DNA from: Owenia fusiformis
Taxonomy: Eukaryota > Annelida > Polychaeta > Sabellida > Oweniidae
Direction: 5' to 3'
Length of the DNA: 64,000 bases
NCBI GenBank assembly: GCA_903813345.2
Contig: CAIIXF020000006.1
Span: forward strand, 40,680,848 to 40,744,847
Shown: positions 7,601 through 61,215 of the stretch, in pieces
Position numbering within the stretch: the stretch's first letter is position 1
Layout: each line of letters opens with the position of its first letter
Translations under genes and position numbers: made by a program
The notes under the pieces: model-generated
The model's input: the letters and a program-made list of their open reading frames with translations, nothing else
The model's database searches: none
Told to the model about the DNA's origin: nothing

Positions 7601-10600
7601 TGTACAGATGTGTCAAATACCATGAATGGTGTATAAATGTAGCAAATACCATGAATGATGTACAGATGTGTCAAATACCATGAATAATGTACAAATGTGT
7701 CAAATACCATGAATGGTGTATAAATGTAGCAAATACCATGAATGATGTACACATGTGTCAAATACCATAAATGATGTACAATGTGTCAAGTACCATGAAT
7801 GATGTACAATGTGTCAAATACCATGAATGATGTACAAATGTGTCAAATACAATGAATGATGTACAAATGTGTCAAATACCATGAATGATGTACAAATTGT
7901 GACAAATACCATGAATGATGTACAAATATGTCAAATACCATGACTGGTGTACAAATGTGTCAAATACCATGAATGATGTACAAATGTGTCAAATACCATG
8001 AATGATGTACAACTGTGTCAAATACCATGAATGGTGTATAAATGTTGCAAATACAATGAATGATGTACAAATGTGTCAAATACCATGAATGATGTACAAA
8101 TGTGTCAAATGCCATGAATGATGTACACATGTGTCAAATACCATAAATGATGTACACTGTGTCAAGTACCATGAATGATGTACAATGTGTCAAATACCAT
8201 GAATGATGTACACATGTGTCAAATACCATGAATGATGTACAAATGTGTCAAATACCATGAATGATGTACAAATGTGTCAAATACAATGAATGATGTACAA
8301 ATGTGTCAAATACCATGAATGATGTACAAATTGTGTCAAATACCATGAATGATGTACAAATATGTCAAATACCATGAATGGTGTACAAATGTGTCAAATA
8401 CCATGAATGATGTACAAATGTGTCAAATACTATGAATGATGGACAAATGTGTCAAATACCATGAATGGTGTATAAATGTAGCAAATACCATGGATGATGT
8501 ACAAATGTGTCAAATACCATGAATGATGTACAAATGTGTCAAATGCCATGAATGATGTACACATGTGTCAAATACCATAAATGATGTACAATGTGTCAAG
8601 TACCATGAATGATGTACAATATGTCAAATACCATGAATGATGTACAAATTGTGTCAAATACCATGAATGATGGACAAATGTGTCAAATACCATGAATGGT
8701 GTACAAATGTGTCAAATACAATGAATGGTGTACAAATGTGTCAAATACCATGAATGATGTACAAATGTGTCAAATACCATGAATGGTGTACAAATGTGTC
8801 AAATACCATGAATGATGTACAAATGTGTCAAATACCATGAATGATGGACAAATGTATCAAATACCATGAATGATGTACCAATGTGTCAAATACCAGGAAA
8901 TAATTTCTTGAAATGACGAAAGCATGCAGGGTTTCCATTTTTTGACCACCCTGTAAAATAACTCTAAACATTAATAACATTAAACTAAACAAATGGAACA
9001 GAATGAAACAAGTTATATATTCTCACACATTATCAATTATATTTTGTACTTCTAATGGGTGGATGAACCTGAAAGTGCAGTGAACATTCAATTCCCAACT
9101 CAGAATGAATTACAACATATTATTTCAAAATAATGTTCACTTTTGCTTTATTAACATGTTATTTCAAAATAATGTTCACTTTTGCTTTTCTAACATGTTA
9201 TTTCAAATTAATGTTCACTTTTGCTTTATTAACATGTTATTCCAAAATAATGTTCACTTTTGCTTTTCTAACATGTTATTTCAAAATAATGTTCACTTTT
9301 GCTTTATTAACATGTTATTCCAAAATAATGTTCACTTTTGCTTTTCTAACATGTTATTTCAAAATAATGTTCACTTTTGCTTTTCTAACATGTTATTTCA
9401 AAATAATGTTCACTTTTGCTTTATTAACAAGTTATTCCAAATTAATGTTCACTTTTGCTTTTCTAACATGTTATTCCAAAATAATGTTCACTTTTGCTTT
9501 ATTAACATGTTATTTCAAAATAATGTTCACTTTTGCTTTATTAACATGTTATTCCAAAATAATGTTCACTTTTGCTTTTCTAACATGTTATTTCAGAATA
9601 ATATTCACTTCTGAGTGAGTAGCTAAGTGCCTATATGATTTAAGGCACACTGCGATTTATGGAGGATAAAATGGTTGAAAATAACATTGTTCTGGCTATA
9701 AATGTGATTGCCTGGTCTTAAACCTTCTCTGGTGAATCTATCTTATAATCCATGATTTTATTGATCAAAAATATGTTATGAATTTGTCCGATATCTGCTA
9801 AGATATGGTGTGTATATTTATGTTGATTATTAAATTACAAAATAGGTAGGGTAAACACCCTATGCAGACGGAGCCTGTGAGAAATATTGGGTGCAGCATG
9901 AATGAGCTGAGGGTGCTGAATGAATGGTCATTTTTGAATTTAGATATGTGATATTTCTGAAACTAACCCATTTTGGGTCTTCAAATATATCCATGTGTGT
10001 AGTTGACACCTAATATCAATCAAATTGTGAAAATAGTAGACCAATTCATTCTATAGAGACGCAGTAAGCATTAAATTCATGCTGCACCAAATATTCCTCA
10101 CAGGCTTCGTCTGCATAGGGTGGTAAAAAATAAGTCAAAGTCATTTCATCTTGTCCCAAAAGCAATGTTTATGTACCAGCGAACACCTCTCTTGATTGAA
10201 CACCTGTCCCTGTCCAAAGTGAATATGTTTTCTCAAAAGTTTTGCTAATTGGCTTAATATATCATAGGAAATTAAAATTAACTGAAGTAATAGTAATATA
10301 TCATATGAAAGTATACTCACCTGAAGTAATATATCATATGAAAGTATACTCACCTGAAGTAATGGTCTCCTCCTAATATAACTCTGTCTCCCTAAAATTG
10401 AGAAAAAATTAATTTATTTTGGCTCATGAATAACATTTCTTCAAGGTACTCACAAAATTTCTGTAGTGTCTGCCAAAATGTCTTAAAAATGGCGGACCTT
10501 AACTTCAAATTAAAACCTGTCAATTGCGACATGAATTAAATATGAAATGTACATAAATAATCAAACTTGAAATTACAGTAATTGTACTTAATAACATTTT

Positions 10601-13600
10601 GTTCTGCATGAATTGGCTGACTCAAGGCTACATAATGACAAACAAAATATTACTTATTTATCATTACAGACATAAAATTACTTATTGGAAATAAATAAAT
10701 GTTAAACTGTTGCGAATCACTTTGTTCTTAATTCCTAGCAACTAATCAATGAATGTTAATTGGATAATTGCTTATCAGTTGTTTGAGGTGAGTTTTTGAC
10801 TGAGGAGATAGCTTTGATCATTGTGTGACCAGAAAACACAAGGGAAATTGGTTGCTCTCTTTCTAGGTTTTCAAAGTACATGTAAGGTGTGTATAGAGCT
10901 GAAATAATTGTCATGGAGTATCATACTTCTTACTATATTCTGTTATAATTAATTAAATAAAATATTACTTATTTTCTACAATTGGGCCTATAACAAAGTA
11001 GCAGTAAAACCTGCTTAATTGGACCACTCTGAAATGGGAACACCTCTCAATATGAACACTCTAGTGATGTTAATATTAGATTATGTGTTGTGTAAACACT
11101 TGTATGATACTAACATGGTGTAGAGTGATCTTCTTGAATATGCTGTCCCCATTAACATAACATGGGGCATCTTTAATGGGACTTATAGTGAGATACTTAC
11201 ATGGTGTAGAGTGGTCTTTTTGAATATGCTGTCCCCATTAACATAACATGGGGCATCTTTAATGGGACTTATAGTGAGATACTTACATGGTGTAGAGTGG
11301 TCTTCTTGAATATGCTGTCCCCATTAACATAACATCGGGCATCTTTAATGGGACTTATAGTGAGATACTTACATGGTGTAGAGTGGTCTTCTTGAATATG
11401 CTGTCAACATTAACATAACATGGGGCATCTTTAATGGGACTTATAGTGAGATACTTGCATGGTGCAGAGTGGTCTTCTTGAATATGCTGTCCCCATTAAC
11501 ATAACATGGGGCATCTTTAATGGGACTTATAGTGAGATACTTACATGGTGTAGAGTGGTCTTCTTGAATATGCTGTCAACATTAACATAACATGGGGCAT
11601 CTTTAATGGGACTTATAGTGAGATACTTGCATGGTGCAGAGTGGTCTTCTTGAATATGCTGTCCCCATTAACATAACATGGGGCATCTTTAATGGGACTT
11701 ATAGTGAGATACTTACTAAGGGTCCCACGATACATTATGAAACGATACGATACGTATCTCGATACTCAGGTCACGATACGAGCAACGATACGATACATAA
11801 TAGTGTAGTTGAACCGGGGGAGGGGGGGGGGGGGGGGTGGGGGGTGAAAAACTGACGTAGCTGAGGTCGAGTTGAAAGTCTATCACTAGCTGTGACATTT
11901 GATTAAGATGCAGCATAAAAACTATTGTCAAGTATCAAGCCTACCTGCTGTATAGTAGCCAGCTATGCATATTTTGCAATATTTTTTGAAGTCCGGCTGT
12001 GCTTTCCCTTTACTGAGGAATGTTACAAGTACAAGTACAGTAGATTTTCTATTATATTATTATCTATTATATTTCTATTCTATTTTCTACCCATGTTTGA
12101 TATTTACACAGCCATAATTCTATCAATTGTTTTCAAAAATTTCAAAAATTTTCAATTTCTAAACTCCGGTCAACATTAATACTCCGAACGTAAATATTGT
12201 TCGTTTTTTTATTAGAGTTATCAATATTAGTAGGCAATTTTTAACGCGGCGTTCTATCGAATAAAAAGATTATATTTATTCATACTAAATTGTCAAAAAG
12301 TATATAGAATAATTATAAAACAAAGTACGTTGATATACGATGACATAGAAGACAGTGTCTTCAAGACACGATTTATTTGTTCGCATTTTGACTGTCAATC
12401 CGCTAAGCATTCTGTTCGCATTTATACACCATCTTGGGGGTGTCATGTCCAGCGAGAAACCAAACAGAAAATATAAGAACAATTTCTCAAAAAAGTCAAA
12501 TATTCAGTAAATTTCGGCAAAATATGATGGATTTCAGGTATGTTAATAATATTTTTGGTGTATCGATATTTGAGTCTTCGTATCGATACGCTCGTATCGT
12601 CACCAAACGAGCCGATGCATCGATATATCGATGAATCGCGGGACCCCTAATACTTACATGACGTAGAGTCGTCTTCTTGAATATGTTGTCCCCATTAACA
12701 TAACATGGGGCATCTTTAATTGAACTTCAATGCAAGTGAGATACTTACATGGTGTAGAGTGGTCTTCTTGAATATGCTGTCCCCATTAACATAACATGGG
12801 GCATCTTTAATGGGACTTTAATAATAGTGAGATACTTACATGGTGTAGAGTGGTCTTCTTGAATATGCTGTCCCCATTAACATAACATGGGGCATCTTTA
12901 ATGGAACTTATAGTGAGATATTCACATGATGTAGAGTCGTCTTCTTGAATATGTTGTCCCCATTAACATAACATGGGGCATCTTTAATGGAACTTATAGT
13001 GAGATACTCACATGATGTAGAGTCGTCTTCTTGAATATGCTGTCCCCATTAACATAACATGTGGCATCTTTAATGGAACTTATAGTGAGATACTTACATG
13101 ATGTAGAGTGGTCTTCTTGAATATGCTGTCCCCATTAACATAACATGTGGCATCTTTAATGGAACTTGTAGTGAGATACTTACATGATGTAGAGTGGTCT
13201 TCTTGAATATGTTGTCCCCATTAACATAACACGAGGCATCTTTAATGGGACTTATAGTGAGATACTTGCATGGTGTAGAGTGGTCTTCTTGAATATGCTG
13301 TCCCCATTAACATAACATGTGGCATCTTTAATGGAACTTATAGTGAGATACTTACATGATGTAGAGTGGTCTTCTTGAATATGTTGTCCCCATTAACATA
13401 ACATGAGGCATCTTTAATGGGACTTATAGTGAGATACTTACATGATGTAGAGTCGTCTTCTTGAATATGCTGTCCCCATTAACATAACATGTGGCATCTT
13501 TAATGGAACTTATAGTGAGATACTTACATGATGTAGAGTGGTCTTCTTGAATATGTTGTCCCCATTAACATAACATGAGGCATCTTTAATGGGACTTATA

Positions 13601-16600
13601 GTGAGATACTTGCATGGTGTAGAGTGGTCTTCTTGAATATGCTGTCCCCATTAACATAACATGAGGCATCTTTAATGGGACTTATAGTGAGATACTTACA
13701 TGATGTAGAGTGGTCTTCTTGAATATGCTGTCCCCATTAACATAACATGGGGCATCTTTAATGGGACTGATCATGACCACCTTTTCTGTGTAATCAAACT
13801 TGCTGGAATATAAATAGGTTCTATTATAAGACTCTTTACACAATTTAATTGTAACTTTAGCATTGTTTCTATTATTTCAGATGACCTTTTACATTTTTAG
13901 AGTAAAATTAAGAAATAGTCAATGAATTTTGTCATTTCTGTTTCAATGTGAATGACAGAAATGAAATATAGAATAAAAGGTCCAAAGTAGCTAACCAATG
14001 ATCATTTGCAATAAGTGCACCATTCAACTGTATATCATGACTGGACATATCCGCTAGTCTGCCCACCCTAGTGGTGCCCTCTTTTAGGATATAAAGTAAC
14101 ATCTCAGACAACTGCGGGTCCTCATTGAGATTCACAAGGCTTGGTAGTCTGTTGTCGATCTTGAACGAGATTCCAGATTTCTGAAAAAAGAATATGTTTT
14201 CCTTATAAAAATAAATAGGCTTTGTTGTTTTATTAAATGAAATTAGAACAATTGGATGGTGTGTTGTAGTATTTATTGCCATATAATTCAAATGCTGGGT
14301 TCTAATGGATTTATTGGTAAAACAAATTCTAGGTCCTGTAGATTTCTGAATACAAGAGGAACAATGCCTTGGTGACAAAAATTTATTAAATAGATGTACA
14401 AATGTAAAATAATGACTGCCCCCTGCATGGTCAATGTCAAATTAACAGTAACACAGGCATTTACAATTAAGTATTTGTTAACCTCTTGAATCCCAGGCTC
14501 TAAAATTGGCATGAAACCAGAGAATTTTTCATTTTTTGCCACCTTTTGACATTTTATTACATACCTATACAACTTTAGATGCTCAGCTTAGTAAAATTGG
14601 ACGGCAGAGATCATTTCTACACGTTTTAAAACAATTTTTGTGTAAATTGGATGAAAATTGTTCAAATGAGAGCAATTTTTGTGAAAAGTTTTGTGACGGA
14701 TTTTCTCGTCCCTCTGGGCACCAGTCTTATTTCATTTGTGACGGATATATCCGTCACTCTGGGTATTCAAGAGGTTAATATTAGATCAATATCTGTTCGG
14801 CCTTGAAATCATACAGAAAGTGTGCTAATTTATAAAGTAAAACAAAAACACATTTGTTTTGTCTGAAAATTAAGATAAAATATATCAAGCCAATCAAATA
14901 GGCTTCAACTTAGTAATGGGGTTAAATCATATTTAAACTTAGTGTCAGAAATTAATACTGAAATGCAATGCAAATGCAAGGCAAATGCAATGCAATTGCA
15001 AGGCAAAATGAACTCAGGGACTGGCAAAAAGTGTTGGATTGGCAGGTGTTAACATTAACAAAGGATGCCTATAGCAGAAAAAGTGTCAAGTCAAAAAAGT
15101 GTTCACATTGAGAGGTGTTCAGATGTACAGATTTGATTGTTTGCACAGTATACACAAATCTGAAGTCGCAAAATTAATTATACAATGTTAAACATTTCCT
15201 CATGATCATGCAAATCAATACATATGAATAATGATAAATCATATAATTATTGCAAATTACCCATGCATTCGCATAAATCACCCCAACTAACTGTTAACTT
15301 TATTTCATTTGTATTGTCAATAATACATAAGCTTAGGACAAAACCCAAAAAGGTTAAAATGAGAATTAATTTGACAGCATTATTACTAATTCTGACATTG
15401 ATTCAAATCTCGAATGCAATGAAAGAAAAGAAAAACAAAGAGAAGAAAGCTGTATGGAAGGAAAAGCAATACAGAAGAGAAAAGTCAAAGGGAATTAAAA
15501 GGCCACAAGTAGCAGATTTGGAGCAATATGCTGTCCTGATGGCATGCCCTTGGAAACGAGCATTTGTGCGGAATAAGCGACCAGTCAAATGCGAGGAGAA
15601 TGCAGATTGTCCAAATGCTTTCTTTTGCCAGAAAGTCGTGAATCCGTTAAATATGACACAGAAAATTGGTTACAGTGTTTGCTGCAGGTCATTTAGTTTA
15701 AAATAATTATATTTCTTTCATCTAAGTCATGAATTTTTCAAAACAAAACCCAATTTTATTCAGTAATAATGAGTCAGAGAGAGGAGATTTAAAAAACTGT
15801 TTCATTTTGAGATCTTGTATTCAATCTTGTATTTCATATGACTGATTGTGAATCAAAAGTTTTTAAAATGAAAAATGCAGATAAAATACCAATATTTCAA
15901 GAAAGGTTTTCAAAAACATTTTATCATTTGATTTGTTTATATATTCTGGGTAGCCCTACCATTACTGGCCTTCTTTTTATAAACCATTGATGTATTCTTG
16001 CTATATGAAATAATGGACACCTCTGTTCCAGGTTTACCAACCACTTGTGCAGATATCCAGCCAAGAACATTATTCCACATAGCTCCAGAGAGTATGTGGC
16101 ATGTGCCAATAATAGCAACTGCCCTGAGGATTACATGTGCCATATTAATAAGGATTACTCCCTATGTTGCCCCATGCCAGGCTCAGAGGTCTTCATGGAA
16201 GGAGGTAATGGTTGCTTTAGCAATTTTTAATCATAAAGGATACAGGAAGATGGGGTCAAGTAACAATGTTGGAATGCTTTGAAGGGACACTTAAGGCCTA
16301 CTAAAGACCAATATAACAGGAAATGAGGCCTGATTTAGGCCAATATAACAGGAAATGAGGCCTGATTTAGGCCAATATGACAGCAAATGAGGCCTGAAAT
16401 AGACCAATATAAAGGAAAATAAGATCTGCTTAAAATTCCTACATTTAAAGGTGAAAGGAAATAGGCCTGGTAAAAGTAAATGTGCTTTGAGGTTGGAAAG
16501 ACCTGTTTAAGTACACATGAAATGAGATATGGGTCAACCTAAAAGCCTCTGTTCAGAATAGTCCCATTGTTGAAAGACATGTTGAAGCCCATCCCCATTC

Positions 16601-38781: not shown

Positions 38782-38863
38782 GAACGATTAAATAACAGTG
38801 AAAGTAGTGGATTTATTTTTGAAAATGTCGGCACTCTAGAAAATCCACATAGGGGCCACTTAA

Positions 38864-39248
38864 AGTCCATTTCACTGCTTCACTTCGTCAGTAGAACGGC
38901 AAAAATAAGAAATTGGGAGACCATTCTGCAATTATATATGGAAAACTGTATTCCTATTGTACATGAATGACATTTGTATATCTTGGATTGCTTCTAGTTT
39001 GGCTTATAAAGTGTGTGGCCTTTTATATTTGGATGCTTCTCTGCCATGTTATTTTCAATAAGATTAACATGGCTGAAATTCTTCAAATTACAAGACGGCA
39101 CAGGCTTATTGCACAAAAAACTAAAAAATCTGAAATATACAAATGTCATTCATGTACATTATGAATATACTTTTCCATAATTGCACAATGGTCTCCCAAT
39201 TTCTTATTTTTGCCGTTCTACTGACGAAATGAAGCAGTGAAATGGACT
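38864..39248. mobile_element. 385-bp foldback palindrome
   Basis: Arms of about 118 bp: AGTCCATTTCACTGCTTCAC at the left and its inverse GAAGCAGTGAAATGGACT at the right, with matching inner parts (GGGAGACCATT, CATTCATGTACAT) around a 140-bp spacer. Confidence 0.8.
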
Positions 39249-39567
39249 CTACGTACTTACTCTTCCGAGCTGACAGAAGTCAGCTCTGGGAACTTCCGTT
39301 GGCATTGCAATGAAGAGAATAAATTGAGCGCATGCGCAAAAAATTAAGAATGGTGCGCGCCGGAACAGAATTTCTCCAATTTAACTGCAAATTACACAAC
39401 AAATAGAACTTGTTGACACCACGCGCTAAAAAAAGGGCAAGTAATATTCAATTATCTTCGTTGGGGAAAAACGCTTCACACGCCGGTATATTCTAACGGT
39501 GTGTCAGCTGGCTTTTGAGCCAGCTGTGTTCAGTAACTACGTACCGACATTTTCTCGGTCCTCTATC

Positions 39568-41671: not shown

Positions 41672-41820
41672 CTATCTGGCCCAACTAAGTTTAGGTGACA
41701 ATAGAGTGACGACAATTGTACCCAAGCAAATACTCACTGGGCAGTCTCCAGTACCGATATGTGTCGGTACGGGAGACAGTCCGTTTAAAAATTGAACCCT
41801 TCAAAGATGTACGTGGGTAC

Positions 41821-46821: not shown

Positions 46822-46854
46822 TATTCCTGACACATCTTGCTGTTGCATTTCAAG
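46822..46854 (+). CDS. CUB gene exon A (signal peptide end)
   Basis: 33 bp, acceptor tttcag|TATTCC, donor TTTCAAG|gtaaac. Encodes FLTHLAVAFQ. It needs an upstream exon ending in phase 1. Confidence 0.65.
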
Positions 46855-49800
46855 GTAAACATTTATGTTATTCTATTTTACTGTAACTGTAAATCTTGTA
46901 TTCTGTTGCATTTCAAGGTAAACATTTATGTTATTCTATTTTACTCTGTAACTGTAAATCTTGTATTCTGTTGCATTTCAAAGTAAACATTTATGTTATT
47001 CTATTTTACTGTAACTGTAAATCTTGTATTCTGTTGCATTTCAAGGTAAACATTTATGTTATTCTATTTTACTGTAACTGTACATCTTGTATTCTGTTGC
47101 ATTTCAAGGTTAACATTTATGTTATTCTGTTGTTCTGTAACTGGAGTAAATCTTGTATTCTGAATTGCTCTTATTCATGGAAAAGTCATCTACAGTGTAT
47201 ATGTGTAAATGTAGATCTCAAACTCTTGTAAAAAGGTTGGATCCATTGTTTGGCCTACAATTTAGTTTGCAGAAGAGGAATGGAAGAAAAACTTTATTGC
47301 TTGGACTTACATTTACATGTAAGATTGGAGAAAACAAACATTGCCAGTCCAGTTTATGAGTATCTATATTTTGTGAATGATGAAGGGGGGGTTTCTAATG
47401 ATACTGTACTATTTCTTATGCTTAAATACAGCGCCATCATGTGGTGGCATCCTCAACAAAACAGAGGGCTCTGCAAGCATTTCTGATGTCCCCCCTAATA
47501 CAACATGCACATGGACCCTTGATTTGGGCAAGCTGAAGAAAGGCCAAGTATATATTACATTTAAAGACGTCAGCCTAATTCATGGACAAGATTTCCTCGT
47601 TATACTGGACAACACTGGGAATGTGAATCTCACTGGGGATCAAGGTACACTTTGTATTATGGATGGCTTCATAACAATTAATTAATGTTTAATTGAATAG
47701 GCTGTGATAAACATGTATAAACTCCATCTATACTTTGAATCAATATTTTATTTGAATATCTGAGGCAAATTGATAATCGGAGGTTTTTTATGTAAATCAT
47801 TTGTTAATGGTGACAGAAAAAAGAAAACAGTATGTGTCATCCTTTGTACAACGATTATGTACAAGTTGTACATGTTAACCCACAGGCTAAAGAGGATTCT
47901 TGTGCTTCTACTGCCATCTTAACATATATTCTTGTGCTACTACTGCCATCTTTACAGATATTCTTGTGCTACTACTGCCATCTTTACAGATATTCTTGTG
48001 CTACTACTACCATCTTTACAGATATTCTTGTGCTACTACTGCCATCTTTACATATATTCTTGTGCTACTACTACCATCTTTACAGATATTCTTGTGCTAC
48101 TACTGCCATCTTTACAGATATTCTTGTGCTACTACTGCCATCTTTGCAGATATTCTTGTGCTACTACTGCCATCTTTACAGATATTCTTGTGCTTCTACT
48201 GCCATCTTTACAGATATTCTTGTGCTACTACTGCCATCTTTGCAGATATTCTTGTGCTACTACTGCCATCTTTGCAGATATTCTTGTGCTACTACTGCCA
48301 TCTTTACAGATATTCTTGTGCTACTACTGCCATCTTTGCAGATATCTATGTGTGAATCGTATTGGCTTTGGGACATTCCTTTTTTCAGATACATATTATC
48401 CTTTTCTGATACTTTTCTATTATTTTCAGATACTTTTCTATTATTTCAGATACATTTTTGTATGTGGGGACATCAAGTCAGACTGTGATTTCTCTAAAGA
48501 TTGGCAGCAACAACATTACCACTCATCCTAGGACATTGGCATTTGAATACAATCAGGATGGTATGTAGTCAATGATATTTATGCATATTAATAGAATAGG
48601 ATTAAACCTAACCACTCATCCCAGGATATTGAAATTTGAGTACAATCAGGATGGTATGTAGTCAATGATATGTGTGCATATCAATAGAATAGGATTAACA
48701 CTAACCACTCATCATAGGACATTGGCATTTGAATACAATCAGGATGGTATGTAGTCATGGATATGTGTGCATATTAATAGAATAGGATTAACACTAACCA
48801 CTCATCATAGGACATTGGCATTTGAATACAATCAGGATGGTATGTAGTCATGGATATGTATGCATGTTAATAGAATAGGATTAACACTAACCACTCATCA
48901 TAGGACATTGGCATTTGAATACAATCAGGATGGTATGTAGTCATGGATATGTATGCATGTTAATAGAATAGGATTAACACTAACCACTCATCCTAGGACA
49001 TTGGCATTTGAATACAATCAGGATGGTATGTAGTCATGGATATGTATGCATGTTAATAGAATAGGATTAACACTAACCACTCATCCTAGGACATTGGCAT
49101 TTGAATACAATCAGGATGGTATGTAGTCATGGATATGTATGCATGTTAATAGAATAGGATTAACACTAACCACTCATCCTAGGACATTGGCATTTGAATA
49201 CAATCAGGATGGTATGTAGTCATGGATATGTATGCATGTTAATAGAATAGGATTAAACCTAACCACTCATCCCAGGATATTGAAATTTGAGTACAATCAG
49301 GATGCTATGTGCAGTATGCATATTAACAGGATATCCCATCACTTCTAGTGGATATCATTTTTATCTACGCATGGTGTACAATTTTTTATCCTTTGACTTT
49401 TTGTTACCATTTCATCCATTCCAAAAATTACTTACATGAATTTTTAACAATAACATGAGTTAAACCTTAAAGTAGTTCTAGAAATTAACTGGTATTTAAA
49501 ACTAGTTTGTTTCTTATTGCAGAATGTAAGCAGAACTTGGTTGAAGGGTCAGGTTCATTTAGATCACCGTACCACTCAAATGCAGGGACATTACAATGTA
49601 CATATACAATACTAGGACTACCTGATACATTAAATGTCCTGTCATTCACTGACTTTTCACTAAAGAAAGGCTTTGTTGATGTGCGTGATGGTCCGACAAC
49701 TGAATCTCCACTCTTAAGAAATTTTACAGGTCTGTATTTAGAAGTTCTTTTGAAGATGCACCCTTTTTACCCTCTCTTTCCTTCATGTTCCTTTAAATTC

Positions 49801-52800
49801 ATGCAAGAGCCCACACAGAAGGGCATATTACATGAAAATGTTATTAGTTTAATCTCACTTGAGAAATGTTATTTGTAATGCCTTGTTTAGTACCTTTAAC
49901 AAATTGTCACGGTTTTGCAATGATTTGCAACTTACCAAGGTGGTGATATTTTGCATTTATTACAGAGAAGTCAGGTCCAGCTGATGTCATATCATCTACA
50001 CAGATCATAATGGTTGAGACAACTCTCTCCATGGGACAACCAAATAACAGCTTTGTGATGTCCTACACTCCAAGCACTGAAGGTACAATTTAGGTGGTCA
50101 TTTGCATTCATATGTTAATAAATAAATGAAACAAAATATTACCAGTTGAATGTATATTTCACTTTGCTGTTTATACTTGAATATTTGCATATTTCTAGGT
50201 TGTTCCAAAGTTGTAAAACTTGTAGATACCATCACAGTTACCAGCCCAGGTTATGAATTTAACGCCAACTATACAAACAATCTCAATTGTAATTGGCTAA
50301 TCACAGGGCCTGCCAACCAATCATTGGGTATCACAATTGACAACTTTGACATCGGGCCAAACGCTGATAGATTAACATTATATGATGGCTTATCCAAACT
50401 TTCTCCCATATTAGGAAGTTATTTTTACGACACAGGAATATCAAACAAAGGTTAGAGATTTTAAAGTCTACATTTTGTGTCATTTAGTGATAACTCGCAT
50501 TTAGCTTTGATGTTTGAAATGAAATAAAAAAGTTTTGTGTGTTTCTCATAGGACGTTGCCTCTCACGCAGATGGTTATAAGAATTTTTTTTAAAAGTGAT
50601 AGGATTAGATTAATCCAATGGGATTTAAATAATGAAAAATTGTAAAAGTAGTGCTGAGTATTTATGATTTCAATCTTCAGGATCTGGTCTGGTGAGCACA
50701 GACAACAGTTTACTGATCAACTTCCAGTCTGACAGTATGAGAACAGCTAGAGGTTTCAGTATCACAGTTCGGACACAGCCTTATGGTGGTGTGTTCACTG
50801 ACAGTGGAACTATATCCTGGATGTGGAAGAGCACAACCTCTGCACCTAAGATCATTGATATTTTAAATGATACCTGGTACTACTTGTTGAAAGTGCCAGA
50901 CAACCAACAGGTGTGTATATCCTTACAGCATAATTTTGGCAAGCTCATGTTAGGTTTTAAATATTATGTTGATTAATGCTTTATTTTTATGTACATGTTT
51001 TTAGGTATATGTGACATTTGATGATGATAGACTCATGTTCCCTACAGCTTCTGTTGATTGCTACAGTGGAAGTAGCGACACTGACCTTCATGTGGGGCAC
51101 TTCACGTAAGTTTATTTTTCAATGTACCTTAAAAATGCATATCTATTAGAGATATGTTCATCCCCTAGCAGACGGACTTAGGTACAATGTAGAACAAATA
51201 ATTCCAGTTTTAGATCAAATGGTAGAGCAAATATAATCTACACAAAGTCTTATTTTCATGTATAGGCAACCTTACCAAATATTCTGCATATCATATTCTA
51301 GAGTCATTTCTAAGTTTTGTGTCATTCAAAGCAAATTACCTTTAACACCGGCCCTTTCATGATAGCGATTTTATTTGGAAGAAAGATAGAATTAAAAGAA
51401 AAACTACAATATTAAAAATTAAAAATGGTGGTTTGGGCTTAATAGATGTTGAAACAAAGATAATGTCATTAAAAGCAAGTTGGGTGAAAAGAATACAAGA
51501 TGATGACACATCATGGATTGATATTCCAAAATATTATATCAAATAGTGTGGTTTAAAAATTGATGATTTTATAAAAACACATTTTACCAAAGATACAAAA
51601 CTGCCTATGCCATTGTTTTATAGAGAAATCTTTTTAGCTTTTAATAAATGTAGAACTAGAAAAGATCAAAATCTAATAGGAGAAATATTTTGGCTAAATG
51701 AATCTTTTAAAATTAAAAATGAAGTGGTACACAACATAAAATGGATATATAGTGGATTTATATATGTTAAAGATTTCTATGATGAAAATGGAACCTTCTA
51801 TAATGAAAAGTATATAAAAAACAAACTTGTTAACAAAAGAAATTGGATGATAGAATACATTCTTATAAAAGCCTGTATAACAAATGTGATGAATAAGTAT
51901 GATACTACAAAAGTAAAATATACAAACATAAAATATATAGGAAAACTTTCCTTTTAGGAAATAATAAATGGATTAAATTAGAAGAGATGAAAACAAATAT
52001 GCTATATGATATATTGATAAAAAGTAAACAAGAACGAAATGTTTTAGAAAAATATTGGAGTAATATCTTTAGTATTCCTCATGATAAAACGTTTTATGAT
52101 AAAATATATTCCTTGAAAATAACAAGCATGAAATACAAAAAGTATGCTGAATTCAACTTTAAATTACTTCACAACATTTTAGCATGTGGAAGTGAGATAT
52201 GTAGATGGAACTCTAATATTAACCAAAATTGTTCAAAATGTAATATAATTCAAAATGCAAAACATCTTATTTTTGAATGTAAGCAAGTAGAAACACTATG
52301 GAAGGATGTGGAAAAAATATTGAAATGTAAAATACTCTGGAAACATTTTATTCTGGGTTTTTATTGCATGGAAAGTGATATTATAGCATTTAGAAATTTA
52401 ATACTTACTATTATAGGTTACACAATGTATTCGACATGGGTAAAATTGTCGGAAGAAAGGAATAAATATGAAAATGTCCACTTCAAATCAAAAATTGCAT
52501 CCAATTTAAAGATTTACGCAAACTGTGTAAATGAAAATGAAAAAGTAAATCATTATTTAGATCAATTTATTAAAAAATTTATATCATAAATATGTTTTTT
52601 TTTGGTGAAGCTCTATATATTTAAATGTTCTATGTATTTGTAGAAATTGCATGTATTTTTGTATGCTTTTGAATGTATTTGTTTTGTAAATATGTTATGT
52701 TGAAATAAATGTAAATAAAATAAAAAAAATAAATAAATAAAAAATGATAGCCATTCTCCATTTTACAGATCACTGGGTTCCCCATTCAAGGATGTGTTCT

Positions 52801-55800
52801 CCAATAGCAACACTGTAAAGCAAATTACCTTTAACACCGGCCCTTTCACTACATGTATAGCCATTCTCTATTTTACAGATCACTGGGTGCCCCATTCACG
52901 GATGTGTTCTCCAATAGCAACAAGATGCTTCTGGTCTTTAGGAACTTCTATGGGAGACAACACATTCAGGCTAACTTTTCAGCTATTTCACAAGGTTTGT
53001 CCTACAGTATAGTCTCCTATTTATGTTATAATGGTGTTTGGGCCTCTTATGTTAGGTATGAATTTCTATGGGAGACAACACATTCAGGCTAACTTTACAG
53101 CTATTTCACAAGGTTTGTCCTACAGTATAGTCTCCTATTTACATGTATGTTATAATGGTGTTTGGGCCTCTTATGTTAGGTAGGAACTTCTATGGGAGAC
53201 AACACATTCAGGCTTACTTTACAGCTATTTCACAAGGTTTGTCCTACAGTATAGTCTCCTATTTATGTTATAATGGTGTTTGGGCCTCTTATGTTAGGTA
53301 GGAACTTCTATGGGAGACAACACATTCAGGCTTACTTTACAGGTATTTCACAAGGTTTGTCCTACAGTATAGTCTCCTATTTATGTTATAATGGTGTTTG
53401 GGCCTCTTATGTTAGGTATGAATTTCTATGGGAGACAACACATTCAGGCTAACTTTACAGCTATTTCACAAGGTTTGTCCTACAGTATAGTCTCCTATTT
53501 ATGTTATAATGGTGTTTTGGCCTCTTATGTTAGGTATGAATTTCTATGGGAGACAACACATTCAGGCTAACTTTACAGCTATTTCACAAGGTTTGTCCTA
53601 CAGTATAGTCTCCTATTTACATGTATGTTATAATGGTGTTTGGGCCTCTTATGTTAGGTAGGAACTTCTATGGGAGACAACACATTCAGGCTTACTTTAC
53701 AGCTATTTCACAAGGTTTGTCCTACAGTATAGTCTCCTATTTATGTTATAATGGTGTTTGGGCCTCTTATGTTAGGTAGGAACTTCTATGGGAGACAACA
53801 CATTCAGGCTTACTTTACAGGTATTTCACAAGGTTTGTCCTACAGTATAGTCTCCTATTTATGTTATAATGGTGTTTGGGCCTCTTATGTTAGGTATGAA
53901 TTTCTATGGGAGACAACACATTCAGGCTAACTTTACAGCTATTTCACAAGGTTTGTCCTACAGTATAGTCTCCTATTTATGTTATAATGGTGTTTGGGCC
54001 TCTTATGTTAGGTATGAATTTCTATGGGAGACAACACATTCAGGCTAACTTTACAGCTATTTCACAAGGTTTGTCCTACAGTATAGTCTCCTATTTACAT
54101 GTATGTTATAATGGTGTTTGGGCCTCTTATGTTAGGTAGGAACTTCTATGGGAGACAACACATTCAGGCTTACTTTACAGCTATTTCACAAGGTTTGTCC
54201 TACAGTATAGTCTCCTATTTATGTTATAATGGTGTTTGGGCCTCTTATGTTAGGTAGGAACTTCTATGGGAGACAACACATTCAGGCTAACTTTACAGCT
54301 ATTTCACAAGGTTTGTCCTACAGTATAGTCTCCTATTTATGTTATAATGGTGTTTGGGCCTCTTATGTTTGGTATGAATTTCTATGGGAGACAACACATT
54401 CAGGCTAACTTTACAGCTATTTCACAAGGTTTGTCCTACAGTATAGTCTCCTATTTATGTTATAATGGTGTTTTGGCCTCTTATGTTAGGTAGGAACTTC
54501 TAAGGGAGACAACACATTCAGGCTTACTTTACAGGTATTTCACAAGGTTTGTCCTACAGTATAGTCTCCTATTTATGTTATAATGGTGTTTGGGCCTCTT
54601 ATGTTAGGTATGAATTTCTATGGGAGACAACACATTCAGGCTAACTTTACAGCTATTTCACAAGGTTTGTCCTACAGTATAGTCTCCTATTTATGTTATA
54701 ATGGTGTTTGGGCCTCTTATGTTAGGTATGAATTTCTATGGGAGACAACACATTCAGGCTAACTTTACAGCTATTTCACAAGGTTTGTCCTACAGTATAG
54801 TCTCCTATTTATGTTATAATGGTGTTTTGGCCTCTTATGTTAGGTAGGAACTTCTAAGGGAGACAACACATTCAGGCTTACTTTACAGGTATTTCACAAG
54901 GTTTGTCCTACAGTATAGTCTCCTATTTATGTTATAATGGTGTTTGGGTCTCTTATGTTAGGTATGAATTTCTATGGGAGACAACACATCCAGGCTAACT
55001 ACATGTATTTCACAAGGTTTGCACTATAATGTGGTCTCCTATTTATACTGAACATTCATGAATAGTATTACTGTTCTCTGGGTATTGCACACTACCCTAC
55101 CACGTGACCACATTTAAAAATGATACAGGGTACGGTTAAGTTGCAAATGAAGCGGGTATTCTCTATCTTTGTCCATTGGGCTTTTCTGGTAATAATACGT
55201 TGCAAACTGCTCGATGAATCTATACAATGTATAGTAGAACACTTAGAATATGTGTAAAATCTAGTAAACATTCAGAACTATGGAAATAAACAAACGTCCT
55301 CCATTTGCAACTTCCCTGTAGCCTGTACTTCTTTTAAAGGAATACAGGATACAGTATGGGGGTATAGTAGTGTGTATTGTTCGTGTGCGATTTAATTTCG
55401 CTTTGTTCGCGAATGTAGTAAAATCGCGAACATTTATCTTCGCAAAATTTGTCTTTTAAATCCCTTGGGATTTGACCCAGGACTTTTGATGTTTTGTTCG
55501 GTGTAAAACGTTTCGTCCAGTGTTGTTGGGCGATTATTCAAAAAAGGCCTATAATGTCTAACATTTTGAATTGGCTTATTAGGCCAACAAAGGCAAGAAC
55601 TGTTGACGACAATGATATCCTACAAATTGAAGTTGAAAAAGCCATTCAAGAATATTCCCCTAAACGTGGGAAATACAAACATTATTCGGATTCTGAACGG
55701 GCTAAAATAGCCAGATACGCATTGATTCACGGTAGGCCTAATCGGAAAAAAATTCAACTTGTGCAATCCGCGAAATGTCATCAATTCAAATCTGCGAAAT

Positions 55801-58800
55801 TAAATAGCCGCAAAATTTATAGCGTCGAAATTTACCGAAGTACAGTACCTATTTAGATAAGCAATTGTTGATGGCTTTATGAAATTAATTAATGAGGTTT
55901 TTGTATCTGCCATTCCAAACAATATTACTTTTACATGTAAATGGGCCATTGGTGTTCAGCCACTGTATAATCTTTTCTCCGACTCTGTCCAGTGCTGCCC
56001 TCTTTAAATTTATCAAAACTTTATACCTGTGTTTATTATTATTATTATTTTATAGGAAGCCATGTGAATGCATTTGGAAGCAGTGGCTCAGTTATTATGA
56101 AGAATTCTGTACAGATGAACCAATCCACATTGCTGATTCAACCAATCAATATAACAGGTGACTTTATTTAACTAAAACAATTAATTTCAAAACTCCTGCC
56201 TCTCATTGATTCATGTTCACTATTATTAATGAATGTTAGTTAGTCATTAGTGAATGAAGCATTACATGTACCTTTTACATTCGTTCAACTTCACTACTTA
56301 AAAGAGAGCTTTAAGTTGTCATTCAGTTTACAATAAATCTCTATCACTGAGCCAGTCAGAGTTCGTGGATAAAATGGATGACTTTCTATATATGATCATA
56401 TTTTCTGACACTATCGTGGAGCTAATGAGCTTGCATTTAGCACGTGCTCCTTCCAGTTCGCTGATTGGTTGAGAAAAGGTCAGCGTGGTAGGTTTGAAAT
56501 GATTTATGACCCGGGTTGTCACAGGCACTGGTCGCCGGGTGGGGCTGCTAAACTGTTATATAGTCTATACTAGGCAGCGGGTAGTTTATAACTAGACTGC
56601 GCGCAGGGTAATGAAGCATTGGTTAAAAGGAGGGTATATGTACATCACTTATGTCTTCATATTTCAGATCTAATATCATTAGAAATCATAAACTTAAATT
56701 TGGAGCCCAATGCAACTGTGACCATATTTGAAGGACTGTCTGACCAATCAACTAGAATTGTGGCATTAACTGCATTTGTACAAACATTTCCACCCATATA
56801 TGTGAGGCCAAATAAAGGCATAAGGTAGGCGGAAATGTTGGGAATTTTATTTTCTACTGGGTGGGCAATAAAAAATGGGACGCTTTGTATTGTTCTTAGA
56901 AGTACAGGATAAACCATGTGTTGTGTAACAAAAAACTGGGTACTCATTTAGCATGTGACTTACTTCAATATGTTGTAGAAATTGTGTACAGATTTTAATT
57001 TTGATGTGATTCACAGAAAACAATTTTACAATCAATAAGTAATTTCATATCTTTTAAGTGATATTGTATAAAATATTTTGCAATGTGTGAAAAGAATTTA
57101 AGCCCAAGACTTGATGCATTGTGTCTTATTCATTCCACTCAGGCATTGTTTCCTAATCTTTGCTTTCCCGCTGTGTGATCATGCAAAAATTTGAAAACAA
57201 GACCTCAAAGCGGAATGATTGAGCACACAATGCATTGAGTCCAGGGCTTCAACCCTTGACAATATCCTTTTCTCTTAAGGGTTGCTTACATGACTACAAA
57301 CCCTGGACAAGATGAATCTCAGTCTATGGACATATTTACAGTCACATATAGAATTGTACCAGGTTAGTACACTATAATCTAAAAATAAGGTTCAAGGGTT
57401 GCCTATATGACTACAAACCCTGGACAAGATGAATCTCAGTCTATGGACATATTTACAGTCACATATAGAATTGTACCAGGTTAGTACACTACAATCTAAA
57501 AATAAGGTTCAAGGGTTGCCTATATGACTACAAACCCTGGACAAGATGAATCTCAGTCTATGGACATATTTACAGTTACATATAGAATTGTACCAGGTTA
57601 GTACACTATAATCTAAAAATAAGGTTCAAGGGTTGCCTATATGACTACAAACCCTGAACAAGATGAATCTCAGTCTATGGACATATTTACAATCACATAT
57701 AGAATTGTACCAGGTTAGTACACTATAATCTAAAAATAAGGTTCAAGGGTTGCCTATATGACTACAAACCCTGGACAAGATGAATCTCAGTCTATGGTCA
57801 TATTTACAGTCACATATAGAATTGTACCAGGTTAGTACACTATAATCTAAAAATAAGGTTCAATGGTTGCCTATATGACTACAAACCCTGGACAAGATGA
57901 ATCTCAGTCTATGGACATATTTACAGTCACATATAGAATTGTTAAGGTTAGTACACTATAATCTAAAAATAAGGTTCAAGGGTTGCCTATATGACTACAA
58001 ACCCTGGACAAGATGAATCTCAGTCTATGGACATATTTACAGTCACATATAGAATTGTACCAGGTTAGTACACTATAATCTAAAAATAAGGTTCAAGGGT
58101 TGCCTATATGACTACAAACCCTGAACAAGATGAATCTCAGTCTATGGCCATATTTACAATCACATATAGAATTGCACCAGGTTAGTACACTACCAGGTTA
58201 GTACACTATAATATAAAAATAAGGTTCAAGGGTTGCCTATATGACTACAAACCCTGGACAAGATGAATCTCAGTCTATGGACATATTTACAGTCACATAT
58301 AGAATTGTACCAGGTTAGTACACTATAATCTAAAAATAAGGTTCAAGGGTTGCCTATATGACTACAAACCCTGAACAAGATGAATCTCAGTCTATGGACA
58401 TATTTACAATCACATATAGAATTGTACCAGGTTAGTACACTACCAGGTTAGTACACTATAATATAAAAATAAGGTTCAAGGGTTGCCTATATGACTACAA
58501 ACCCTGGACAAGATCATGGGCTTTCAACTATATCTACAGTAAAACCTGTCTAATCCGAACACCCATGGGACCAGCCAAAAGTGTTCAAATTGGCAGGTGT
58601 TCAAATTTCGAGGATATTGTTGGTCGGGGGGGATTTTCATTGTTCAGTCCACTATATTGAACACTTAATACTTAGTCAGAAAACAATACATGTTGTTGAT
58701 GAGTTTATTCTACAATAGGCCTATAGCCTACATGTATATGCTATGTTTTATTTATATTTTGAACAATTTCATTATTTTTGGAAAAATAACTCTTTAATAA

Positions 58801-59660
58801 AAACGGTATTTTTAGCTCACATGGTGAGCTTTTGCAATTGCTACGCTCGCTCGTGCAGATATCATATCCATTCGTGGATAAAAATCATATCACTCATAAA
58901 TCATAGGATATCCTCTATGCATGTATATGATATACTTAAAAATTTTCAGGATGTGGAGGAAACTACAATTCAACAAAGGGAACTATTCTCAGCCCGGGTT
59001 TCCCAAACCTCTACCCCTACAATATGGACTGTTCCTGGTCTATCACCCCTCTGAACAGTAAACTGGTCCACATAACATTTGATGCGTTTCACACAGCCAA
59101 TCAGCATCCAGTTTACATATCCAAGATGATGAATGGTACAAGACAGTTGGTTGGATCATTTAGAGGGAATGACACTCTGTATGATATAATAGGAACAACA
59201 AATGAAAGTTTGGTGTTGAGCTTCTCGTCCAGTGCCCAGAATTCCTTAAAAGACATTGGATCTGGTTTTAAGCTGAGTTACGAGAACATAGGTACATATA
59301 ATTAGTAATAAAAGTTCACTTAAAGTCTTACATCAAGTACTTGCTTCCAAGCAGAGTCCTTTTTTATTAGCACAGTGCTTCTTAAACAATGTTTGGAGTA
59401 ACAGAGATGCTCAATGTAAAATTATTATATAGAAAATACCAATATCGTTTTTTTTCATTTTTATTATTTCCAGATTGTGGTGGTCTGTTGACAAATCTTA
59501 GCAGTTCTAAGACAATCTCCTCCCCAGGCTTCCCTGCCCCTCTCCCTAATGCTACAATCTGTGTGTGGGTGATAGCATTGCCACATAGCACTGGGAACAA
59601 CTCAGCAGTGAATATTGTCAACTTCAGTCTAGATGTCAAGAACTACATTAACAGCACAAG
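46822..59660 (+). CDS. Multi-CUB-domain extracellular protein, 14 exons visible, both ends open
   Basis: Fourteen exons with matching phases give about 750 residues. The first visible exon reads FLTHLAVAFQ, probably the end of a signal peptide. Seven CUB-type units follow. Units 1-3 are each split over two exons (CGGILNKTEG; CKQNLVEGSGSF; CSKVVKLVDT starts). Units 4 and 5 are diverged and lack the first Cys. Unit 6 is encoded by one exon (CGGNYNSTKGTILSPGFPN). Only the first half of unit 7 is seen (CGGLLTNLSSSKTISSPGFP). About twenty N-glycosylation sequons support secretion. CUB proteins mediate extracellular protein or ligand binding; no protease or other domain is visible, so function stays open. 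The start codon and the end after exon 14 were not found. Nine of the introns carry splice-site arrays or repeats. Confidence 0.85.
46842..47150 (+). repeat. 63-bp array over the exon A donor
   Basis: Five units, each beginning TTGCATTTCAAG|gtaaac, the last four exon codons plus donor, then TGTAACTGTAAATCTTG. The first copy belongs to the real exon. Confidence 0.93.
47432..47644 (+). CDS. CUB gene exon B (CUB1, first half)
   Basis: Acceptor aaatacag|CGCCAT; donor CAAG|gtacac. Encodes PSCGGILNKTEG, NTTCTWTLDLG and QVYITFKDVSL, the first Cys pair and core strands of a CUB domain. Confidence 0.88.
47897..48345 (+). repeat. 32-bp array of acceptor-like units upstream of exon C
   Basis: About 14 units of ATCTTTACAGATATTCTTGT plus GCTACTACTGCC. 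Each holds a pyrimidine tract and CAG|ATA, resembling the real exon C acceptor (tttcag|ATACATTTTTG) about 100 bp downstream. It contains no clear CUB coding sequence. Confidence 0.93.
48450..48560 (+). CDS. CUB gene exon C (CUB1, second half)
   Basis: Acceptor atttcag|ATACAT; donor GGATG|gtatgt. Encodes DTFLYVGTSSQTVISLKIGS and ends FEYNQDG. Confidence 0.85.
48515..49310 (+). repeat. 93-bp array over the exon C donor
   Basis: About eight units; each carries the end of exon C (TTHPRTLAFEYNQDG) with its gtatgt donor and about 45 bp of intron. The first copy is the real exon; two copies (near 48620 and 49265) share a diverged form. Confidence 0.94.
49523..49729 (+). CDS. CUB gene exon D (CUB2, first half)
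   Basis: Acceptor attgcag|AATGTA; donor TTTACAG|gtctgt. Encodes CKQNLVEGSGSFRSPYHSNA and LQCTYTILG. Confidence 0.88.
49966..50082 (+). CDS. CUB gene exon E (CUB2, second half)
   Basis: Acceptor attacag|AGAAGT; donor TGAAG|gtacaa. Encodes PADVISSTQIIMVETTLSMG and NSFVMSYTPS. Confidence 0.85.
50199..50450 (+). CDS. CUB gene exon F (CUB3, first half)
   Basis: Acceptor atttctag|GTTGTT; donor CAAAG|gttaga. Encodes CSKVVKLVDTITVTSPGYEF, LNCNWLITGP and LTLYDGLS. Confidence 0.88.
50681..50910 (+). CDS. CUB gene exon G (CUB3 end, CUB4 start)
   Basis: Acceptor tcttcag|GATCTG; donor CAACAG|gtgtgt. Ends CUB3 with LLINFQSDSMRTARGFSITV and starts the next unit with GGVFTDSGTISWMWKS. Confidence 0.87.
51005..51105 (+). 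CDS. CUB gene exon H (CUB4)
   Basis: Acceptor ttttag|GTATAT; donor TTCAC|gtaagt. Encodes VYVTFDDDRLMFPTASVDCY and DTDLHVGHF. Confidence 0.83.
51366..52743 (+). mobile_element. 5'-truncated L1/Tx1-type LINE
   Basis: Only the C-terminal part of the reverse transcriptase polyprotein is present: KNGGLGLIDVETKIMSLKAS, SWVKRIQDDDTSWIDIP, then a Cys-rich region (CSKCNIIQNAKHLIFECKQV) and the end FIKKFIS near 52588, with stops and frameshifts (TAG near 51546, frame change near 51957). An AT-rich 3' tail ends in AAATAAATAAATAA. A 7-bp duplication ATGATAG flanks it (51359-51365 and 52744-52750). Confidence 0.88.
51607..52589 (+). pseudogene. LINE ORF2 C-terminal remnant, frameshifted
   Basis: Two consecutive frames (51607-51957 and 51987-52589) cover the post-reverse-transcriptase region of an L1/Tx1-like ORF2. 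The frameshift between them and the missing 5' part show it is dead. Confidence 0.8.
52879..52994 (+). CDS. CUB gene exon I (CUB4 end)
   Basis: Acceptor ttttacag|ATCACT; donor CACAAG|gtttgt. Encodes SLGAPFTDVFSNSNKMLLVF and GRQHIQANFSAISQ. The upstream duplicate at 52759 lacks most of the exon, so this copy is the one expected in mRNA. Confidence 0.83.
52945..55020 (+). repeat. 118-bp array over the exon I donor, with higher-order periodicity
   Basis: About 17 units, each with the end of exon I (GRQHIQANFTAIS), its gtttgt donor and intron. One unit type carries an extra ACATGT (TTTACATGTATG) near 53138, 53616 and 54094, spaced 478 bp, that is four units. The first copy belongs to exon I and differs at CTTTTCAG against CTTTACAG. 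Confidence 0.95.
55021..56055 (+). other. CUB intron with a transposase fragment
   Basis: Unique intron DNA including the relic at 55494-55760 and CGCGAA-rich patches near 55380-55450 and 55770-55830 that look like subterminal repeats of an element. Confidence 0.5.
55494..55760 (+). pseudogene. DNA-binding N-terminus of a pogo-like transposase (relic)
   Basis: The frame reads KRGKYKHYSDSERAKIARYA, matching the N-terminal helix-turn-helix found in pogo/Tigger-like transposases of invertebrates. The catalytic part is absent. Flanking TACAGTA-type ends (near 55350 and 55843) would fit but do not pair well. Confidence 0.5.
56056..56157 (+). CDS. CUB gene exon J (CUB5)
   Basis: Acceptor ttttatag|GAAGCC; donor ATAACAG|gtgact. 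Encodes GSHVNAFGSSGSVIMKNSVQ and LLIQPINIT. Phase agrees with exons I and K. Confidence 0.78.
56255..56612. mobile_element. Copy of a dispersed repeat, inverted
   Basis: Ends match the direct repeats at 61968 and 63096: ACATTCGTTCAACTTCACTA at the left (inverse of AAGTGAAGTC-AACGAATG) and TAACTAGACTGCGCGCAGGG at the right (inverse of CCCTGCGTGCAGAGTCTAGTT). The interior is unique. Confidence 0.55.
56668..56824 (+). CDS. CUB gene exon K (CUB5)
   Basis: Acceptor atttcag|ATCTAA; donor CATAAG|gtaggc. Encodes DLISLEIINLNLEPNATVTI and IYVRPNKGI. Phase 2 at the end agrees with exon L. Confidence 0.8.
57275..58528 (+). repeat. 117-bp whole-exon array (exon L copies)
   Basis: About ten further copies, each with an AG (aaggttcaag) before the exon, the full 83-bp exon and its gttagt donor. 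The pyrimidine tract of the first copy is missing from the others. Exon L starts in phase 2 and ends in phase 1, so joining two copies would shift the frame. Confidence 0.94.
57280..57362 (+). CDS. CUB gene exon L (CUB5 end)
   Basis: Acceptor ttctcttaag|GGTTGC with a good pyrimidine tract; donor ACCAG|gttagt. Encodes VAYMTTNPGQDESQSMDIFT and YRIVPG. Confidence 0.82.
58529..58640. repeat. Dispersed repeat fragment (AGTAAAACCTG family)
   Basis: Reads ACAGTAAAACCTGTCTAATC and later GTGTTCAAATTGGCAGGTGT, the best preserved of at least four fragments of this family in the window (others near 11001, 17512, 18775). Confidence 0.6.
58950..59291 (+). CDS. CUB gene exon M (complete CUB6)
   Basis: Acceptor attttcag|GATGTG; donor ACATAG|gtacat. 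A full CUB domain in one exon: CGGNYNSTKGTILSPGFPNL, DCSWSITP, LVLSFSSS, FKLSYENI. Confidence 0.9.
59474..59660 (+). CDS. CUB gene exon N (CUB7, first half)
   Basis: Acceptor atttccag|ATTGTG; donor CACAAG|gtacat. Encodes CGGLLTNLSSSKTISSPGFP and CVWVIALPHSTG. Ends in phase 2; the rest of CUB7 was not found. Confidence 0.85.
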
Positions 59661-61215
59661 GTACATTACATATCTTATAAATCACTTTTAATTGGAGAAC
59701 ACCTTCCCTGCCCGCCTCCCTAATGTTACAATGTGTGTGTGGGTGATAGCATTGCCACATAGCACTGGGAACAACTCCGCAGTGAATATTGTCAACTTCA
59801 GTCTAGATGTCAAGAACTACATTAACAGCACAAGGTACATTACATATCTTATAAATCACTTTTAATTGGAGAACACCTTCCCTGCCCATCTCCCTAATGC
59901 TACAATGTGTGTGTGGGTGATAGCATTGCCACATAGCACTGGGAACAACTCCGCAGTGAATATTGTCAACTTCAGTCTAGATGTCAAGAACTACATTAAC
60001 AGCACAAGGTACATTACATATCTTATAAATCACTTTTAATTGGAGAACACCTTCCCTGCCCGCCTCCCTAATGTTACAATGTGTGTGTGGGTGATTGCAT
60101 TGCCACATAGCACTGGGAACAACTCCGCAGTGAATATTGTCAACTTCAGTCTAGATGTCAAGAACTACATTAACAGCACAAGGTACATATCTTATAAATC
60201 ACTTTTAATTGGAGAACACCTTCCCTGCCCCTCTCTCTAATGCTACAATGTGTGTGTGGGTGATAGCATTGCCACATAGCACTGGGAACAACTCCGCAGT
60301 GAATATTGTCAACTTCAGTCTAGATGTCAAGAACTACATTAACAGCACAAGGTACATTACATATCTTATAAATCACTTTTAATTGGAGAACACCTTCCCT
60401 GCCCCTCTCCCTAATGCTACAATCTGTGTGTGGGTGATAGCATTGCCACATAGCACTGGGAACAACTCCGCAGTGAATATTGTCAACTTCAGTCTAGATG
60501 TCAAGAACTACATTAACAGCACAAGGTACATTACATATCTTATAAATCACTTTTAATTGGAGAACACCTTCCCTGCCCATCTCCCTAATGCTACAATGTG
60601 TGTGTGGGTGATAGCATTGCCACATAGCACTGGGAACAACTCCGCAGTGAATATTGTCAACTTCAGTCTAGATGTCAAGAACTACATTAACAGCACAAGG
60701 TACATTACATATCTTATAAATCACTTTTAATTGGAGAACACCTTCCCTGCCCCTCTCCCTAATGCTACAATGTGTGTGTGGGTGATAGCATTGCCACATA
60801 GCACTGGGAACAACTCAGCAGTGAATATTGTCAACTTCAGTCTAGATGTCAAGAACTACATTAACAGCACAAGGTACATTACATATCTTATAAATCACTT
60901 TTAATTGGAGAACACCTTCCCTGCCCGCCTCTCCAATGCTACAATGTGTGTATGGGTGATTGCATTGCCACATAGTACTGGGAACAACTCAGCAGTGAAT
61001 ATTGTCAACTTCAGTCTAGATGTCAAGAACTACATTAACAGCACAAGGTACATATCTTATAAATCACTTTTAATTGGAGAACACCTTCCCTGCCCATCTC
61101 TAATGCTACAATGTGTGTATGGGTGATTGCATTGCCACATAGCACTGGGAACAACTCAGCAGTGAATATTGTCAACTTCAGTCTAGATGTCAAGAACTAC
61201 ATTAACAGCACCACA
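59535..61215 (+). repeat. 170-174 bp array over the exon N donor
   Basis: Ten units with about 125 coding bases of exon N (FPAPLPNATICVWVIALPHS through NSTR), its donor and a short intron. The last copy reads ACAGCACCACAAGAC and runs into unrelated sequence. Small variants (ATT/ATC for I, CCC/CGC, GTACATT/GTACATA) are shared between neighbours. Confidence 0.95.

Follow-up and report, generated by a model that had tools for sequence, protein, structure and literature searches.

The closest described counterparts of the structures analysed here come from lancelets. The sections of the lancelet globin paper that deal with them describe tandem repeats across exon-intron borders, on either side, with units of 10–160 bp and with an AG or GT in many, not all, of the copies (PMC3087553). 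The same sections credit the name "mirages" to earlier work on Adh3, take RT-PCR data to suggest that regular splicing is undisturbed, and propose that introns may be gained from mirages (PMC3087553). PGBD5 is added as a lancelet mirage gene, and TnC cited, in the relevant part of a second paper (PMC3902484). In the open-access literature that we searched on such repeats, no mirages outside lancelets were found among the matches listed. We analysed one whole 64,000-nucleotide stretch of DNA (C6:40680848-40744847 of a 498-Mb assembly, 94–158 kb from the end of contig C6), hereafter the window, for which the first-pass annotation had remarked that minisatellites rarely respect exon borders, a remark that misses the published lancelet mirages.

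The arrays in the window are probably mirage minisatellites too, in a lineage unrelated to lancelets and on a larger scale. The assembly is made up of twelve large contigs (C1–C12, 31.9–62.2 Mb, 477.5 Mb in sum) and 513 further ones with 20.8 Mb between them. Lancelets have many GFP genes; a search of this genome for the GFP family gave no match, as did the same search of the control genomes. One 22-mer resembles miR-1994, a spiralian microRNA, with a single mismatch; miR-1992 and COX1 gave no match, and three Hox genes read on C1 were not diagnostic. They resemble the lancelet mirages (Adh3, globin, TnC, and PGBD5) in having units that span either border and many copies with AG or GT. They differ in that a single array here holds up to 18 copies of its junction and that, within one gene, many borders are affected; undisturbed splicing (suggested by RT-PCR) and haplotype or somatic length differences are described for the lancelet arrays, whereas here we deal with one assembly and predicted junctions. 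Two further systems invite comparison. Intron gain by tandem genomic duplication (PMC4974935, for example) likewise supplies a gene with second copies of its splice signals, whereas the arrays here enlarge introns that look pre-existing. Ordinary intronic minisatellites have the same unit identity as border-spanning arrays (median match 95% for spanning arrays and 96% for non-spanning ones with units of at least 50 bp in our sample of other genes), but the spanning unit holds coding sequence and a splice site.

Two genes in the window carry the arrays. The minus-strand gene is KIF14: its exon E6 piece has solved KIF14 motor domains as best match (E 2e-28, against 2.6e-18 for KIF13B), and three of its exon pieces score above the Pfam kinesin cut-off. 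The plus-strand gene has CUB domains. Four of its pieces were tested: two score above the cut-off, at E 8.7e-15 and 7.1e-8, a third falls slightly below it, and the fourth has no match. Exon numbering of both genes may not equal that used previously. Junctions were predicted from reading frames combined with a splice-site matrix rather than from transcript data; kinesin exons of this genome served to train the matrix (93 kinesin hits in fetched loci, hits with an internal stop excluded), and splice calls scoring below 5 were left out. Tandem Repeats Finder (TRF) returned 70 rows for the window, in which the main arrays make up 36% of the bases, or 38% of the span described by the first-pass annotation. 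The arrays are listed below by position in the window.

36389..36839, minus strand: KIF14 E1 donor array, 90-bp unit, 5 copies; first intron base 36760
29339..31381, minus strand: KIF14 E3 acceptor array, 154-bp unit, about 13 copies; first exon base 29477; the exon, with a Kinesin domain, is intact at the downstream end
27034..27352, minus strand: KIF14 E4 acceptor array, 76-bp unit, 4.2 copies; junction 27071
24424..25358, minus strand: KIF14 E6 donor array, 57-bp unit, 16.9 copies; donor 25318, assumed to be the first of 17 equal sites; exon with the KIF14 match
22090..23410, minus strand: KIF14 E9-E10 intron array, donor side, 39-bp unit, 34 copies; starts at the first base of the intron
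21318..22089, minus strand: KIF14 E10 acceptor array, 145-bp unit, 5.3 copies; junction 21399, adjoining the 39-bp array
21102..21208, minus strand: KIF14 E10 donor array, 46-bp unit, 2.3 copies; junction 21193
12650..13768, minus strand: KIF14 E13 donor array, 86-bp unit, 12.9 copies; junction 13699
11106..11716, minus strand: far 86-bp array, unit as in the E13 donor array, 7.1 copies; about 0.9 kb from that array, with no authentic junction
10255..10363, minus strand: 33-bp array near 10.3 kb; donor-like sites 10353 and 10320, exon putative
46840..47162, plus strand: CUB exon A donor array, 63-bp unit, 5 copies; junction 46855
48382..48458, plus strand: CUB exon C acceptor array, 21-bp unit, 3.7 copies; predicted acceptor 48450, near-equal site 48430
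48518..49310, plus strand: CUB exon C donor array, 93-bp unit, 8.5 copies; junction 48561
52747..52922, plus strand: CUB exon I acceptor duplication, two 66-bp copies at a spacing of 110; acceptor 52879, upstream copy 52769
52939..55046, plus strand: CUB exon I donor array, 118-bp unit, 17.7 copies; junction 52995
57277..58514, plus strand: CUB exon L donor array, 117-bp unit, about 10 copies; junction 57363, with a possible acceptor at 57280 (score 6.5) in its first bases
59529..61211, plus strand: CUB exon N donor array, 174-bp unit, 9.7 copies; junction 59661, CUB match slightly below the cut-off

The window holds other elements as well. Plus-strand reading frames at 15206-18643, with VWC domains in the last of them, are apparently a nested gene: they fall between KIF14 E10 and E12, which are encoded on the opposite strand. 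Between CUB exons, a reverse-transcriptase-like remnant is seen at 51346-52586 (weak zf-RVT match at 51903-52586, below cut-off). A 29-bp unit repeated about 109 times occupies 5745-8899, with no link to a known exon.

The earlier observation of at least 14 splice junctions at tandem arrays in the two genes holds, apart from one exon. Among the 47 predicted window junctions, 13 lie inside arrays (the donors of KIF14 E1, E6, E10, and E13 and of CUB exons A, C, I, L, and N; the acceptors of KIF14 E3, E4, and E10 and of CUB exon C). A 14th, the KIF14 E9 donor, coincides with the base at which its array begins, and the acceptor of CUB exon I, outside the 47, is duplicated in two copies that are 95% identical. 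That exon, near 10.3 kb and previously taken as the last of KIF14, is putative; a fitting donor-like site stands at 10353 and recurs at 10320 (8.0 each). The site at 10320, an AG|GT at a 33-bp repeat boundary, also scores 11.3 as an acceptor. Both border types are hit, with nine donor and three acceptor arrays in the decoy count given below (the E9 and far 86-bp arrays uncounted here) and the C and I acceptors in addition. Ten of the 11 arrays with a unit of at least 50 bp and at least 2.5 copies include a predicted junction, and the eleventh shares the unit of one that does. As reported before, one complete exon is found at the end of the array each time, namely the outer end. This regularity had been read as a clue to mechanism, which it is not: when a border-spanning segment is tandemly copied, the copy that stays attached to the remaining exon sequence can only be terminal. 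We defined the authentic site as the copy joined to the complete exon, which by necessity heads a donor array and closes an acceptor array. A complete exon at the end of the array is thus forced by geometry; it points to no mechanism and is no separate finding.

We then counted the copies of each junction with a 30-base probe over 14 array entries, the C and I acceptor duplications lying outside this count. The window holds 105 extra junction copies: the GT or AG is retained in 100, 93 come to within 1 bit of the authentic site's score, and no copy surpasses that score by more than 0.5 bit. The KIF14 E9 array yields no extra copies with this probe because its unit has no exon part. In the pooled decoys, slightly fewer of the exonic columns than of the intronic ones vary (73/779 versus 55/394, P 0.02), with individual arrays differing in direction; decoy variability is heterogeneous between arrays and gives no clean signature. 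At 24995-25510, the reading frame through the 57-bp unit (19 codons) remains open over several copies past E6, so that use of a later donor would add 19-residue repeats to the motor domain without a stop. Intron length was measured for 18 introns: nine consist of array over 53–100% of their length and measure 577–4,749 bp, and the other nine measure 116–957 bp. The E6 donor array occupies 97% of the E6-E7 intron. The E9-E10 intron (2,011 bp) is 100% array, a 39-bp array running from the donor and directly abutting the 145-bp array that ends across the acceptor. From a hand reading of one unit of each, this intron looks as though it was about 98 nt long before growth, its two halves having been amplified separately.

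To place the window in the context of its genome, we sampled 67 stretches (296,917 bases) around Pfam-hit exons, 31 of kinesin, 20 of myosin, and 16 of dynein genes. Arrays cover 7.4% of these bases and 1.8% of coding hit bases (811/46,116), a shortage expected from purifying selection. Of 61 sampled arrays, 11 include a predicted junction; the 397 junctions predicted there are a lower bound, since exons without Pfam model hits are uncounted and several kinesin, myosin, and dynein exons outside the fetched stretches were left out. One sampled locus (L030, C2:23266359-23269174) is another strong mirage in an unrelated place: a kinesin exon start is repeated in 17.9 copies at a 159-bp spacing. 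A different arrangement was seen at C9:37986009-37994334, where 12 separate matches to one myosin-head stretch (about profile positions 18-84) follow one another at irregular spacing. This looks like a cluster of alternative exons, of the kind present in insect muscle myosin.

We propose that the arrays probably arose by ordinary minisatellite growth of border-spanning units, tolerated since only the outermost copy completes the exon, with lengthening of the introns. A segment of roughly 20–175 bp straddling an exon-intron border would first be duplicated; the usual processes of minisatellite growth (slippage, template switching, or unequal exchange) would then multiply and homogenise its copies, which would accumulate on the intron side. 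The sole copy on an exon with a proper acceptor and donor would be the outermost, first in donor arrays and last in acceptor arrays. Because exon definition could still choose this copy, splicing would stay correct, the mRNA would be unchanged, and the array would be tolerated as nearly neutral. The net result would be longer introns and a load of full-strength decoy splice sites. Selection that tolerates duplications leaving one intact exon had been suggested in the first-pass annotation, and this part of its interpretation fits well. Minisatellite growth with tolerance by exon definition accounts for the anatomy but leaves the excess of spanning units unexplained: under tolerance alone, junctions should show no excess, but spanning units occur at about twice the random rate in the sample and far above it in the window.

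The other part of that interpretation was a process amplifying DNA from splice sites. Here, transcription, R-loops, or splicing-linked template switching would preferentially duplicate border-spanning segments, which we regard as rather unlikely. The evidence for it comes from a null in which each array is collapsed to one unit and the units are placed at random; this null was made the main test after the sample result of the circular-shift null (below) was known. In the sample, the 11 of 61 spanning arrays compare with 5.0 expected when all arrays are taken (P 0.008), 9 of 34 with 3.4 for units of at least 25 bp and at least 2.5 copies (P 0.004), and 7 of 20 with 2.8 for units of at least 50 bp (P 0.012). 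Without L030, which was fetched though already known to be repeated, the count is 10 of 60 versus 4.85 (P 0.017). Barring wholly exonic placements gives P values of 0.014, 0.007, and 0.018 for the three filters; with a GC preference estimated from the intron-only arrays included as well, they become 0.020, 0.012, and 0.028, the expected count for the 11 of 61 ranging from 5.0 to 5.8 across corrections. In the window, with an automatic list made as in the sample, 13 of 28 arrays span a junction versus 2.1 expected, 11 of 22 versus 1.5 (at least 25 bp and 2.5 copies), and 10 of 11 versus 1.1 (at least 50 bp). For this list, abutting arrays at 21318-23410 were merged into one and the array at 18780-20018 was taken at period 35, TRF also reporting 87. 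A hand-picked list of 22 window arrays (12/22 versus 2.2; 11/11 versus 1.3) was dropped in its favour, small arrays being missing from it and split ones joined.

Several observations speak against such targeting. The window had been picked for these arrays, which bears on its higher proportion than the sample under the same filter (10/11 versus 7/20, Fisher P 0.007). The sample effect is about twofold on 11 events, and under the widest filter kinesin alone falls below 0.05 (5/29 versus 2.1, P 0.048; myosin 2/22 versus 1.1, P 0.32; dynein 4/10 versus 1.8, P 0.08). Intron-only arrays show no gradient towards junctions in comparison with random positions (mean percentile 0.48, n = 50, P 0.76), and with donor and acceptor sides both hit, no one signal is prominent. 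Outside the window, the excess of spanning units is therefore modest, about twofold, and unexplained, with no hotspot around junctions; it lends the idea of a process amplifying from splice sites modest support (corrected P 0.02). Two other properties of the arrays were considered. Copies are more alike in spanning than in all non-spanning arrays, both in the sample (median match 95% versus 85.5%, P 0.04) and in the window (means 95.75 versus 89.75, P 0.015, on hand-picked rows), but no such difference is seen against sampled non-spanning arrays with units of at least 30 bp (P 0.28); we make no claim about age. Unit length is a multiple of three in 11 of 22 cases versus 7.3 expected, which is not significant (P 0.08).

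Chance overlap appears improbable. Arrays in a region with many minisatellites and short introns, close to the end of a chromosome, would simply meet junctions at the rate predicted by coverage, and array coverage is indeed 38% of the described span against 7.4% of the sample, with the window close to the end of C6. When arrays are slid as they stand (circular shift), the window shows no excess (13 of 47 junctions in arrays versus 17.2 expected), and the first 51 sampled loci, kinesin and myosin, are depleted (7/267 versus 17.6; kinesin 5/161 versus 11.2, myosin 2/106 versus 6.5). This null is unfair, however, because an array grown from one unit cannot hold several old junctions, and collapsed window units give the 13 of 28 versus 2.1 reported above. 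The verdict on enrichment hinges on which null is used, and the earlier claim that arrays sit at exon borders beyond chance is accordingly borne out by the collapsed null and not by the circular shift. Intron gain through tandem duplication of AG|GT-containing exon segments (the Rogers model), with the arrays as new introns, is very improbable, given that the units hold one border plus intron sequence and so resemble growth of an existing intron, even though the E6-E7 and E9-E10 introns are almost or wholly array and the AG|GT at 10320 scores as acceptor and donor alike.

In the papers that we found, mirages are reported from a handful of lancelet genes. Their dense occurrence here, in what is probably another lineage and with a sampled frequency, opens three questions to testing: how the splicing machinery passes over as many as 16 decoys of equal strength in one intron, whether arrays drive intron growth, and whether duplications favour splice junctions. 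Gene predictors may also call spurious exons in such arrays. We consider it doubtful that a junction-tied process, such as co-transcriptional template switching, repeatedly seeds minisatellites at exon-intron borders, and does so separately in the lancelet lineage and in this probable spiralian; if it does, mirages would be a general way, overlooked so far, for introns to grow and new splice sites to arise.
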